This document shows positions 21,987-25,866 of a DNA stretch of 64,000 bases, one piece after another. The notes below the pieces were generated by a model that was given only the letters and a program-made list of their open reading frames with translations, had not been told where the DNA came from and made no database searches. Every line of letters starts with the position of its first letter. Positions within the stretch are counted from its first letter, which is position 1. The DNA is from Sphingopyxis sp. L1A2A (GTDB lineage: Bacteria; Pseudomonadota; Alphaproteobacteria; Sphingomonadales; Sphingomonadaceae), in the NCBI RefSeq assembly GCF_005502465.1, contig NZ_SCOT01000007.1, positions 62,001 to 126,000 of the forward strand, written 5' to 3'. The position numbers and the translations under genes were made by a program.

Positions 21987-23000
21987 TCAGAACAGGCGGG
22001 TCAGTCCGTAAAACGCCGCCGCGACGATCGCGCTTGCGGGAATGGTGATGAACCACGCCGCAACGACATTGCTCGCCACGCCCCAGCGCACCGCGCTGGC
22101 GCGGCGCGCGACGCCGGCGCCGATGATGCTGCCGGTGATCGTGTGCGTCGTCGACACCGGGATGCCGAGCAGGCTGGCAGTGAACACCATGATCGACCCG
22201 CCGGTCGAGGCGGCAAAACCCTGATGATGCGACAGCTTGGTGATCCGCCCGCCCATCGTCTCGATGATCTTCCACCCGCCCGACAGCGTGCCGAGCGCGA
22301 TGGCGACATAGCAGCTGAAGGCCACCCAATGCGGGACGTGAAACTCGCCCTCCAGATAGCCCGTGGAGTAGAGCAGCACCGCGATGATCCCCATCGTCTT
22401 TTGCGCATCGTTCAGTCCGTGGCTGATCGAATAGGCGGCCGACGAAAACAGATGGAGGTGGCGAAAGGTCTTTTCGGCGAAATTCGCGGTTGCCCGGCGC
22501 AGCGCCCAGCTGCTGAGCAGCATCACCAGCATCGCCAGCAACATGCCGAGCATGGGCGACAGGAAAATCGCGATCACCGTTTTGTTCAGCCCGGTCCACT
22601 CGATCCCCTCGAACCCGGCATGGGCGACCCCGGCGCCGACGATGCCGCCGACCAGCGCATGGCTCGACGACGACGGAATGCCCTTCAGCCAGGTGACGAC
22701 GTTCCAGAACATCGCGCCGACCAGCGCCCCGAACACCACCGCCGGGGTCACCAGATCCTTGTCGATGATCCCCTTGCCGATCGTCTCCGCGACCTTGTGC
22801 AGCTCGGGAAAGATCACCGACAGGAAGTAAGCCGCGAAGTTGAAGAAGGCGGCAAAGATCACAGCCTGTACCGGGCGCAGCAACCGCGTCGCGACAACCG
22901 TCGCGATGCTGTTCGCGGCGTCGTGCAGACCGTTCAGAAAATCGAACGCCAGCGCCAGGATGACCAGGCCGACGAGGAGGGGGAAAGCGAGTTCGTGCAT
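21987..23000 (-). CDS. pit: Inorganic phosphate transporter, PiT family
   Basis: 337 residues with about ten membrane helices. PiT proteins carry metal-phosphate complexes into the cell with protons or sodium. The two inverted-repeat signatures are present: NGLHDAANSIATVVATR (about residues 23-39) and HGLNDAQKTMGII (about 199-211). It starts 15 nt after the DUF47 gene, the classic DUF47-pit (orfA-pit) pairing, and belongs to an operon that begins with a NUDIX gene behind a tandem Pho box. Confidence 0.95.
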   Translation of the reverse strand: MHELAFPLLVGLVILALAFDFLNGLHDAANSIATVVATRLLRPVQAVIFAAFFNFAAYFLSVIFPELHKVAETIGKGIIDKDLVTPAVVFGALVGAMFWNVVTWLKGIPSSSSHALVGGIVGAGVAHAGFEGIEWTGLNKTVIAIFLSPMLGMLLAMLVMLLSSWALRRATANFAEKTFRHLHLFSSAAYSISHGLNDAQKTMGIIAVLLYSTGYLEGEFHVPHWVAFSCYVAIALGTLSGGWKIIETMGGRITKLSHHQGFAASTGGSIMVFTASLLGIPVSTTHTITGSIIGAGVARRASAVRWGVASNVVAAWFITIPASAIVAAAFYGLTRLF

Positions 23001-23015: not shown

Positions 23016-23660
23016 TTAAGCGTGGTCGATGACCAGGCCGTCGATCTCGTTCGCGACATCCTCGAAGCGGTCGACGACACGTTCGAGGTGGCTGTACAGC
23101 TCGCGCCGGATGATGAACTGCGTGGTGTGCGCCTCGCCCATTTCGCGGAACAAGCGCTTCAGCCCGGCGGCGTGGATTTCGTCGGCATGGCCCTCCATCC
23201 GGACCAGCCGTTCGGTGAGCTCGTGCAGCCGCGGACCGTTGGCGCCGATGTTGCGGAGCAACGGCAGCGCCTCGGCGGTGAGCCGCGCCGCATCGACGAT
23301 GATCCCGGCGATATCGCGCATTTCGGGCTCGAAATCGGTGACGTCATACAGATCGACCGCGCCCGCCGTCTTCTGCATCTCGTCGATCGCATCATCCATC
23401 GACGCGATCAGGTCGGTAATTGCGCTGCGATCAAAGGGGGTCAGGAACGTGCGGCGGACCGTTTGCAACACTTCGCGGGTGATCGCATCGGCATCATGTT
23501 CGCGCTCGACAATTTCCTGGATATGGTCGGCCATGCCCTCACCGCCCTGCAGCATCCGCGACAGCGCATTGGCGCCGGCGACAAGGGTCGCGGCGTGGCT
23601 TTCAAACAATTCAAAGAAATTTCCCTGTCGCGGCAGCAAACGCTGAAACCATGCGAACAT
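23016..23660 (-). CDS. DUF47 family (PhoU-like) protein, putative PiT accessory/regulator
   Basis: 214 residues from MFAWFQRLLPRQGNFFELFE, the usual DUF47/TIGR00153 start and length. These PhoU-like helical-bundle proteins pair with PiT transporters and are thought to regulate phosphate uptake. Typical blocks are ESHAATLVAGANALSRML, EREHDADAITREVLQTVRR with the metal-binding ExxxD-like motif, and FLTPFDRSAITDLIASMDD. An AGGGG lies 8 nt before the ATG. As the sequence stands, the frame is continuous with the upstream NUDIX gene, so a fusion is formally possible; separate initiation here is more likely. Confidence 0.9.
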   Translation of the reverse strand: MFAWFQRLLPRQGNFFELFESHAATLVAGANALSRMLQGGEGMADHIQEIVEREHDADAITREVLQTVRRTFLTPFDRSAITDLIASMDDAIDEMQKTAGAVDLYDVTDFEPEMRDIAGIIVDAARLTAEALPLLRNIGANGPRLHELTERLVRMEGHADEIHAAGLKRLFREMGEAHTTQFIIRRELYSHLERVVDRFEDVANEIDGLVIDHA

Positions 23661-23665
23661 TCGGC

Positions 23666-24149
23666 TTACCCCTGTTTTTTCAGCAACATTCTGGACAACT
23701 CCCGTCGGACGCGCGGCGGCACGAAAGCCGCTGTCGCCGAACGAGCGGATCAGCGCCTGCAGGTCGGGTTCCTCGACCACCGCTGCGGCGGCGTCGAACG
23801 GAAACCAGCGGCGGTCGCGTTCGTCCATTTCCTTCCAGTCGGCGAGTTCGTTGGTGACCGCCAGCGGAAAGACTTCGACGTCGAGCAGCACCGCGGCGCC
23901 ATTGGCGCGGCGCTTGCGATATTGATAGCTGCCGATCGGGGTCGGACAGACCGCGCCGATGACGCCGGCCTCTTCCTCGGCCTCAATCGCCGCCGCGGCG
24001 TGGCGGGTCATACCGGTCAGCGGATTGCCTTTGGGGATGACCCAGCGTTTCGTCTCGCGCGACGTGATCAGCAGGACTTCGGTGGCTCCGTCCTGACCCG
24101 GTCCGCCGAATCGATAGGGAAGGACGGCGATCTGACGCATAGACTTCAT
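23666..24149 (-). CDS. NUDIX hydrolase, 3' end apparently frame-shifted
   Basis: A NUDIX domain of the diphosphoinositol-polyphosphate phosphohydrolase-like (DIPP) kind. It opens MRQIAVLPYRF and carries TSRETKRWVIPKGNPL and a NUDIX box matching Gx5Ex7REUxEExGU loosely (AAAAIEAEEEAGVIG, about residues 54-68). In the present frame there is no stop before DUF47. Shifting by one base near 23730-23745 gives a natural end VRRELSRMLLKKQG and a TAA at 23666-23668, 5 nt before the DUF47 ATG. That layout suggests a one-base insertion (real or a sequencing error). Start is 24149 or 24140; AGGAAAGG lies upstream. Confidence 0.75.
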
Positions 24150-24181: not shown

Positions 24182-24221
24182 GTGACAAAAGCGTTACGCC
24201 TCTATGACAATATTGTGACAG
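24182..24221 (-). promoter_or_regulatory. Tandem Pho box (PhoB binding site) upstream of the NUDIX-DUF47-pit operon
   Basis: On the minus strand, 7-mers with an 11-nt period: CTGTCAC, 4 nt, TTGTCAT, 4 nt, GCGTAAC (weak), 4 nt, TTGTCAC. The first two with their AT-rich AATA spacer match the PHO-box consensus CTGTCAT-N4-CTGTCAT almost exactly. The nearest edge is 33 nt from the NUDIX start. It also lies about 100 nt upstream of the divergent monooxygenase gene. Confidence 0.82.
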
Positions 24222-24324
24222 CGACAAGCAGGCTTCATCCCGGCGCGGCTTTCCGTAAACGTCAATTCGATTGCAAAATGCAACGTGGTGCGTAAGCTGC
24301 GGCCAAACATAGTCGGGAGACAGG

Positions 24325-25866
24325 ATGATGGCAGGCACCACGACGATGGAACGCCCCGCAAACGCAAACGCTGCGCCGGTGGATCAGGATGTGCTGATCG
24401 TCGGCGCCGGCATTTCGGGCATCGGCATGGCCGTGCACCTGCAACAATATAGCCCCGACCGCAGCTTCGCCCTTGTCGAGCGCCGCGCCAACCTGGGCGG
24501 CACCTGGGACTTGTTCCGTTATCCGGGCATCCGGTCGGACAGCGACATGCACACGTTGGGGTTCGTCTTTGAGCCGTGGAAGCATGAAAAGACGATCGCC
24601 GACGGCCCCGCGATCCTCGAATATCTCAATCGCATCGTCGACGAACGCCATATCCGCGAGCGCATCCGCTTTGACCGCAAGGTGGTCGGGGCCGACTGGG
24701 ACAGCGCCGCGGCGCGCTGGACTGTCACGCTGGAGGACGCCGCGGGCGCCACGTCGACGACGACGGCGCGCTGGCTTTATCTTGGCGCCGGCTATTATGA
24801 CTATGACGCACCGTTCGACGCCAATTTTACCGGGCGCGAGGATTTTCAGGGCCAGATCGTCCATCCGCAATTCTGGCCCAAGGATCTCGACTATACGGAC
24901 AAGAAGGTCGTGGTGATCGGATCGGGCGCGACCGCGGTGACGATCGTTCCGGCGATGGCGGACAAGGCGGCGCATGTCACGATGCTGCAACGCACCCCGA
25001 CCTGGTTCGCGATCCGCCCGGCAAAAGACGCGATCGCCAATTTCCTGCGAAAGATCCTGCCCGAGGAACTGGCGTACAGGATTACCCGCTACAAGAATGT
25101 GAAGATGCAGGACGTCGTTTTCCGCAAGGCGCGTGACAAGCCGGAAAAGGTGAAGGAATATCTGTCCAAACAGATCCAGAAGAGCCTAGGCGACAAATAT
25201 GACGCGGCGACCTTTACCCCGCCCTACAATCCCTGGGAGCAGCGGCTGTGCCTGATCCCCGATGCCGATTTTTTCGAGGCGATGAAGGCCGACAAGGCAT
25301 CGGTCGTCACCGACCATATCGAAAGGTTCGACGCGACCGGCATCCAGCTCAAGTCAGGCAACCATCTGGATGCCGACATTATCATCACCGCGACCGGCCT
25401 CAGCCTGGCCGTCGCGGGCAAAATCCCGGTGCGCGTCGACGGCGACCTCGTCGATTGGAGCGAGCATTATTACTATAAGGCGTGCATGTTCTCGAACGTC
25501 CCGAATTTTTCGGCGGTATTCGGATATCTCAACGCCAGCTGGACGCTGCGCGCCGACATCGTCGCCGAATATGTCTGCCGCGTGCTCAACCATATGCAAG
25601 CAACGGGCACCCAGGTCGCGACCCCTGCCCTCGCCGACCCGGCGACGCTGACGGAAGAGAATATCTTCGATTTTTCGTCGGGCTATATCCAGCGTTCGCT
25701 GCACATCATGCCGAAAAATGCCGACAAGCTGCCGTGGCGGCTCAACCAGAATTATATCCAGGACCGCGTCGACATGAAGACCGGCGCGATCGACGATGGC
25801 GTGCTCATGTTCGGCCATGTCCGCGCGGTGGCTTCGGCTCCCGCCCAACTGGAAGCTGCCGAATAG
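24325..25866 (+). CDS. Flavin-containing monooxygenase, Baeyer-Villiger type
   Basis: 513 residues. The FAD-binding Rossmann motif is VGAGISGIGMAVHL (about residues 31-44), the Baeyer-Villiger fingerprint FQGQIVHPQFWP is at about 173-184, and the NADPH-binding motif VVIGSGATAVT follows at about 195-205. Such enzymes insert oxygen next to a ketone to make esters or lactones using NADPH and O2. Substrate is unknown. GGGAG precedes the ATG by about 9 nt. It is divergent from the phosphate operon and ends directly against the convergent DUF3008 gene. Confidence 0.92.
   Translation: MMAGTTTMERPANANAAPVDQDVLIVGAGISGIGMAVHLQQYSPDRSFALVERRANLGGTWDLFRYPGIRSDSDMHTLGFVFEPWKHEKTIADGPAILEYLNRIVDERHIRERIRFDRKVVGADWDSAAARWTVTLEDAAGATSTTTARWLYLGAGYYDYDAPFDANFTGREDFQGQIVHPQFWPKDLDYTDKKVVVIGSGATAVTIVPAMADKAAHVTMLQRTPTWFAIRPAKDAIANFLRKILPEELAYRITRYKNVKMQDVVFRKARDKPEKVKEYLSKQIQKSLGDKYDAATFTPPYNPWEQRLCLIPDADFFEAMKADKASVVTDHIERFDATGIQLKSGNHLDADIIITATGLSLAVAGKIPVRVDGDLVDWSEHYYYKACMFSNVPNFSAVFGYLNASWTLRADIVAEYVCRVLNHMQATGTQVATPALADPATLTEENIFDFSSGYIQRSLHIMPKNADKLPWRLNQNYIQDRVDMKTGAIDDGVLMFGHVRAVASAPAQLEAAE

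Follow-up and report, generated by a model that had tools for sequence, protein, structure and literature searches.

A tandem Pho box before the Nudix-DUF47 fusion gene and pit of Sphingopyxis sp. L1A2A: a probable target of PhoB repression

Organization of the locus

The window analyzed in this work is a whole stretch of 64,000 nucleotides from Sphingopyxis sp. L1A2A [RefSeq: GCF_005502465.1; contig NZ_SCOT01000007.1, positions 62,001 to 126,000], and coordinates refer to it unless another locus is named. Two genes are arranged in tandem on its minus strand. The first (23016..24140) encodes a protein of 374 amino acids with an N-terminal Nudix domain [Pfam: PF00293; 31.8 bits, cut-off 21.1] spanning approximately residues 1-149 (23694..24140) and a C-terminal DUF47 (PhoU_div) domain [Pfam: PF01865; 139.3 bits, cut-off 24.4]; the protein scores below the cut-off of TIGR00153 (49.7 vs 104.3 bits). 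The second gene, pit (21987..23000), starts 15 nt further downstream and encodes a low-affinity phosphate transporter [Pfam PHO4: PF01384; 315.1 bits, cut-off 33.7]. A DUF47-bearing gene thus lies directly upstream of pit on the same strand, as in the orfA-pit arrangement. The divergent neighbour on the plus strand (24325..25866) encodes a flavin-dependent monooxygenase-like protein.

Two sets of loci were used for comparison: 80 named loci, i.e. the best 80 of 417 relatives of the fusion protein, among which the closest are from Sphingopyxis (45 Sphingopyxis-type loci and 35 others), and 30 loci of the genus (the window's own and 29 relatives; the gene is present in 39 of 40 genomes), which share genomes with the named loci as well as common descent, so that the locus counts given below are not independent.

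A preliminary description of this DNA postulated a trio of NUDIX, DUF47 and pit with a separate NUDIX gene at its head. There are two genes instead, as NUDIX is the N-terminal domain of a fusion: a single frame runs through both domains with no stop between them, which rules out separate genes, and the frame is open across both domains in all 80 named loci. That the two domains form one gene is virtually certain. The AlphaFold2 model of the protein (mean pLDDT 82.7, pTM 0.56) comprises two domains with a poorly defined joint at residues 144-172.

The position of NUDIX at the head, initially considered unusual, turned out to be common in the family. In a sample of 147 genomes of the order, PF01865 was matched at E 0.001 in 35 and above the cut-off in 30; NUDIX was present in frame upstream of DUF47 in 18 of 24 family loci besides the window and absent from six, and five loci from other families of the order were without it. 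In a second alphaproteobacterial family (f46) the fusion was found in the three sampled genomes with a match. No Nudix-DUF47 fusion is described among the matches listed for the open-licence literature on Nudix, DUF47, PhoU and Pit, as far as the available text of these sources goes; two matches to 'DUF47' (PMC12210691, PMC12202601) are really DUF4743.

Alignment of relatives and a well-spaced Shine-Dalgarno sequence favour the start codon at 24140 over the ATG at 24149. A second start is predicted inside the gene, at the ATG of residue 161 (23658..23660, minus strand), preceded at a distance of 8 nt by the putative Shine-Dalgarno motif AGGGG (23669..23673, minus strand). The sequence ACAGGGGT or a near variant of it stands before the ATG of the DUF47 part in all 30 genus loci; the gene of locus L085, which lacks NUDIX, opens with an identical ACAGGGGTAAGCCG-ATG. 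Mean pairing with the anti-Shine-Dalgarno sequence amounted to -6.5 kcal/mol at the internal ATG, -2.9 kcal/mol at other in-frame ATGs and -6.0 kcal/mol at the NUDIX start. At the internal start, pairing of -4 kcal/mol or stronger was found in all 45 Sphingopyxis-type loci and in 26 of the 33 others (78 of the 80 loci; the start motif was not found in L192 and L197); the background frequency was 24% for the remaining in-frame ATGs and 29% when every codon was counted. The stronger pairing, together with the start of the L085 gene, makes a second product likely, and we consider the odds to be somewhat in favour of plain DUF47 being made in addition to the fusion.

The tandem Pho box

Upstream of the operon, at 24221-24182 on the minus strand, a tandem Pho box consists of four 7-mers in steps of 11 nt, separated by AATA, AGAG and GCTT. 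Units 1 (CTGTCAC, 24221-24215), 2 (TTGTCAT, 24210-24204) and 4 (TTGTCAC, 24188-24182) match YTGTCAY at 7/7 positions; unit 3 (GCGTAAC, 24199-24193) is weak and matches at 4/7. The preliminary description had noted these four strictly spaced 7-mers, one of them weak, and the minus-strand sequence, the shuffles and the genome scans bear it out. It also placed the box 33 nt upstream of the operon: the upstream position holds, and the distance is 32 nt to the ATG at 24149 and 41 nt to the favoured start.

The pattern of all four units, the third of which was fitted to the site itself, occurs once in the window and in none of 100 shuffles. Of the two exact matches to the neutral pattern YTGTCAYN4YTGTCAY in the genome of 3,706,695 bases, one is the box; the other (L103 4081-4098, G000:C16) lies between genes which we take to encode a TonB-type receptor and a cupin-like protein. 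When as many as three mismatches were allowed, the pattern built from units 1, 2 and 4 was matched seven times genome-wide and its reversed control not once, and the box is the sole exact match to this pattern. It is the best site of the four-unit Pho type in the 3.7-Mb genome. PhoB itself is encoded there (TIGR02154, 340.1 bits vs cut-off 296.2), with neighbours that we read as pst genes.

In all 30 genus loci the best site of this kind is situated 41-54 nt before the start. A score of at least 13/14 was reached by 43 of the 45 Sphingopyxis-type named loci and by 3 of the 35 others (L177, L187, L192), in comparison to 0.95% of random 250-nt windows; the box is present in 44 of the 45, with L152 as the exception. 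The strong box is therefore a trait of the genus and not of the family, and the idea of a family-wide strong box was dropped. Weaker Pho-like pairs occur in the order sample at varying positions.

Pattern rarity, conservation in the genus and the presence of PhoB all support the earlier proposal of a putative PhoB site. We regard it as near certain that the Pho box is real and, judging from these sequence features, very probable that the operon is under PhoB control.

Other Pho-like sites were seen in the genome. The next-best is a long Pho-like array before a gene for the phosphate-selective porin Porin_O_P (L100 8974-9013, G000:C32:28973-29012), kept at 30 genus loci. A four-unit Pho-like box (L102 4400-4439, G000:C71) stands before a presumably gspC-like gene followed by further genes for type II secretion; TAGGCG lies 10 nt after its last unit, and what we take to be a TonB-type receptor gene precedes the box. 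Opposed Pho-like boxes (L101 7496-7534, G000:C33) are located between the presumed pst/phoB cluster on the minus strand and a divergent frame of 257 amino acids.

Promoter layout of pit and the phosphate porin

Directly 5' of Pho unit 1 a putative -35 element, TTGTCG (24222..24227, minus strand), is followed after 17 nt by a putative -10 element, TAGAGG (24199..24204, minus strand), which overlaps the last base of unit 2 and the first base of unit 3 and reads TAGRGG in most of the genus. The layout TTGNNG-N17-TANNGG thus encloses units 1 and 2. When the genus loci were aligned on the box, TTG was found six nt before unit 1 in 30 of 30, and 17 nt downstream of the TTGTNG hexamer TA was likewise invariant. 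By sigma-70 consensus TAGRGG is a poor -10, and a sigma-70 scan reported no promoter facing the operon; its one match, at +24182, faces the monooxygenase gene. A -10-like hexamer approximately 10 nt after unit 4 was also considered and rejected, as the information in alignment columns 50-53 of the 30 loci does not exceed 0.42 bits and the conserved sequence of columns 54-56 is GCC.

The Porin_O_P gene (201 bits), whose promoter is likely activated by PhoB judging from its sequence, was used as a contrast. The pit set comprised 44 of the 45 Sphingopyxis-type named loci, L152 being left out for having no box, and the porin set 30 loci of 39 genomes with a match, the window's own genome included. 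Porin promoters were anchored on units -22, -11 and 0 and pit promoters on 0 and +11, so that the choice of anchors accounts for part of the unit counts; neither the TTG nor the hexamers entered into the anchoring, and their counts are free of this effect. In the pit promoters TTG is present at -6 in 42/44 and TA at +17 in 42/44, TAGGGG or TAGAGG occupies the -10 place in 34/44, and a Pho unit of at least six matches at -33, -22 or -11 occurs in none of the 44. In the porin promoters TTG at -6 is found in 0/30, a Pho-like unit lies at -22 in 28/30 and a mostly TGACG-type unit at -11, and TAACAG, TAGCAG or TAATAG follows unit 0 at exactly 10 nt in 29/30. Relative to the first unit this hexamer has the same place as the -10 hexamer of pit (TA in 42/44).

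An arrangement in which a PhoB-independent promoter is overlaid by PhoB sites has repression as its simplest reading, and we consider it probable from the layout that PhoB acts on this operon as a repressor. Pho-like units over or beyond the -10 do not prove repression by themselves, since the porin promoters also carry them at +11 (14/30) and +33 (25/30).

The opposite reading would have PhoB activate the operon, with the box acting like the tandem box of E. coli pstS and pit being raised in starvation. The layout of the E. coli pstS box resembles the order of two strong, one weak and one strong unit seen here; the box is strongly conserved, and TAGRGG follows unit 1 at 10 nt, which is the porin distance. 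However, an activator would need a dimer site upstream of unit 1, whereas all 44 pit loci lack a Pho unit there and 42 of them have the TTG element in that place; nor is there -10-like conservation about 10 nt after unit 4, and the precedent discussed below is one of repression. Activation is unlikely on this evidence.

The box may alternatively serve the monooxygenase gene, with the operon as a mere neighbour. That gene is divergent from the same intergenic region at 30/30 genus loci, and the single match of the sigma-70 scan points towards it. However, a separate conserved block is found on its side, which in 42 of 45 loci is 41-63 nt away from the box; the Pho repeats are oriented toward the operon, their distance to it is tightly kept (41-54 nt) and the box belongs to the operon-facing TTGNNG/TANNGG layout; this reading is very improbable. 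In the window the strongly conserved part covers about 50 nt (24250-24300), nearer to the monooxygenase gene, and holds the palindrome TTGCAAAATGCAA (24271..24283, no strand assigned). The palindrome probably belongs to the monooxygenase promoter rather than to the Pho box, and the block is possibly the operator of some regulator. As the preliminary description suggested, the monooxygenase gene may share the control region with the operon.

Comparison with orfA-pit of Sinorhizobium meliloti and a model of regulation

The preliminary description had invoked orfA-pit of S. meliloti as a precedent of repression by PhoB, and the available parts of two papers agree with it: expression of orfA-pit falls on phosphate starvation and its Pho box lies just before the start codon (PMC3131613, the former citing Bardin et al.), and a role of PhoB in this repression 'was proposed' (PMC3616915). 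The two systems share an accessory gene directly before pit, a Pho box just upstream and the presence of PhoB. The Sphingopyxis DUF47 protein differs by its N-terminal Nudix domain and probably by the internal start; moreover, repression of orfA-pit has been reported, whereas the repressor layout in Sphingopyxis is read from a promoter comparison. In the portion of PMC3616915 at hand, the boxes tied to proposed repression, SMc02862 included, are placed farther upstream of mapped starts, and the Sphingopyxis pit layout differs in this respect.

We propose that the ordinary sigma-70-type promoter TTGTCG-N17-TAGAGG would be active in phosphate-replete cells and would drive a two-gene operon for the low-affinity phosphate importer, the first product being a PhoU-like accessory regulator of Pit with a Nudix head. 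In starvation, phosphorylated PhoB would bind units 1-2 and probably 3-4; as the four units occupy the spacer, the -10 and the start region, the promoter would be shut, while Pst and the phosphate porin would be switched on. The Nudix head would probably bind or cleave a phosphate-chain compound (polyphosphate, ApnA or similar) and might thereby link the DUF47 gate on Pit to the phosphate status of the cell interior, and the internal start would probably supply plain DUF47 besides the fusion. Taken as a whole, this proposal of a PhoB-repressed operon with a Nudix head coupling phosphate status to Pit seems to us reasonably likely on the strength of the sequence.

The Nudix domain and its association with pit genes

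The best matches of the Nudix half among solved structures, by sequence as well as by fold, are human DIPP1 and yeast Ddp1, the fold matches behind DIPP1 being Ddp1, MutT1 and Ap4A hydrolases; the closest solved fold of the DUF47 half is PhoU-like (3l39). The Nudix box has the consensus GX5EX7REUXEEXGU, of which the fusion retains E53, E56, E57 and G59, with M44 in place of the first Glu and I52 in place of Arg; many relatives likewise have another residue in place of the Arg. Like DIPP1/NUDT3 and Ddp1, the fusion has the three metal-binding Glu residues, but it is about 25% identical to them, has other residues for the first Glu and the Arg, and is a bacterial domain joined to a PhoU-like one. 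Ddp1 hydrolyses PP-InsP, ApnA and polyP, according to the available text of PMC8064635. By analogy, phosphate chains are likely candidate substrates.

A relative of this Nudix domain was found in 44 of 289 genomes sampled from the class, the window's own included. For the neighbourhood analysis 44 of the 47 places outside the window's own were used, the three weakest (G328, G254, G272) being left out. A Pit gene lies within approximately 3 kb of the Nudix relative at 24 of these 44 alphaproteobacterial places, in 16 families; L239, whose Pit match lies at about 2.7 kb and is truncated by the end of the locus, was not counted. Across the 40 Nudix-bearing class genomes there are 39 PHO4 matches altogether, and the chance expectation that we calculated from these counts is about 0.1 Nudix-Pit pairs. 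Several layouts are represented: fused in three cases, NUDIX-DUF47-pit unfused in one, DUF47-pit-NUDIX in three, a Nudix gene divergent from DUF47-pit and separated from it by Pho-like repeats in one, and a tandem or converging position next to a longer Pit in 16. In the divergent case (L238 2737-2961) a three-unit Pho-like repeat stands between the Nudix gene and DUF47-pit, and the three parts are unfused. The association is recurrent and not obligatory: PHO4 is without a match in nine of the 40 genomes, and in a further set, picked by hand, Pit was nearby at 2 of 12 places of the same class and at 0 of 8 outside it. In view of this latter set, the idea that the Nudix family goes with Pit in every case was given up.

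These data bear on two other readings of the domain. It may be a general house-cleaning or mRNA-type hydrolase that was fused by accident and has no part in Pit gating, as could be suspected from the occurrence of the same family without Pit and from the two degenerate positions of the Nudix box. Against this stand the proximity of Pit at 24/44 places, in so many families and layouts and far above chance, and the metal ligands E53, E56 and E57, which are invariant in 22/22 aligned fusions; we rate it as a serious possibility that falls short of an even chance. Alternatively, the domain may be a catalytically spent sensor merely binding a phosphate-chain ligand. Replacement of the first Glu and the Arg would fit such a role, and so would the many basic residues invariant in the 22 fusions (R28, R32, K37, R75, K76, R108, R110), but the same invariance of the three Glu residues and the retention of E..EE in 42 of the 44 relatives from the class sample, whether Pit is present or not, make a spent sensor rather improbable. 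Within our own proposal, the step in which a phosphate-chain ligand tunes Pit via DUF47 is tentative and, taken by itself, doubtful.

Related systems and implications

PitR, an accessory regulator of Staphylococcus aureus (PMC13170248), is similar in that a PhoU_div domain is encoded with a Pit transporter. The PitR set of that study, as given in the text available, admitted proteins only if a single PhoU_div domain was all they contained, because of which NUDIX-DUF47 fusions fall outside it, and the word 'nudix' does not occur in the main text as accessible. The gene list of Planobispora, in the part of PMC8269224 at our disposal, has DUF47 and NUDIX as separate entries. In the pap-pit neighbourhood a Nudix gene is likewise found near pap-pit and polyphosphate genes, although it is neither fused nor adjacent to pit; pap-pitH1 is without a Pho box according to the accessible part of a review, unlike the pit operon of Sphingopyxis.

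It may be speculated, with the reserve due to an unlikely idea, that the module would correspond in bacteria to the phosphate switch of eukaryotes: a Nudix domain of the DIPP/Ddp1 type, fused to the PhoU-like regulator of Pit or encoded beside pit across many alphaproteobacterial families, would read or consume a phosphate-chain messenger (polyphosphate, ApnA or a pyrophosphorylated compound) and so set low-affinity import, and PhoB would remove the module in starvation.

To our knowledge, the ligand sensed by the PhoU-like helpers of Pit transporters is not settled. The Nudix fusion, in which the closest solved relatives of the Nudix domain split phosphate-chain compounds, names a candidate class of ligands for these helpers which would be testable in one protein, and the paired pit and porin promoters of a single genus may offer a test of whether the position of the Pho units decides if PhoB acts as a repressor or as an activator.
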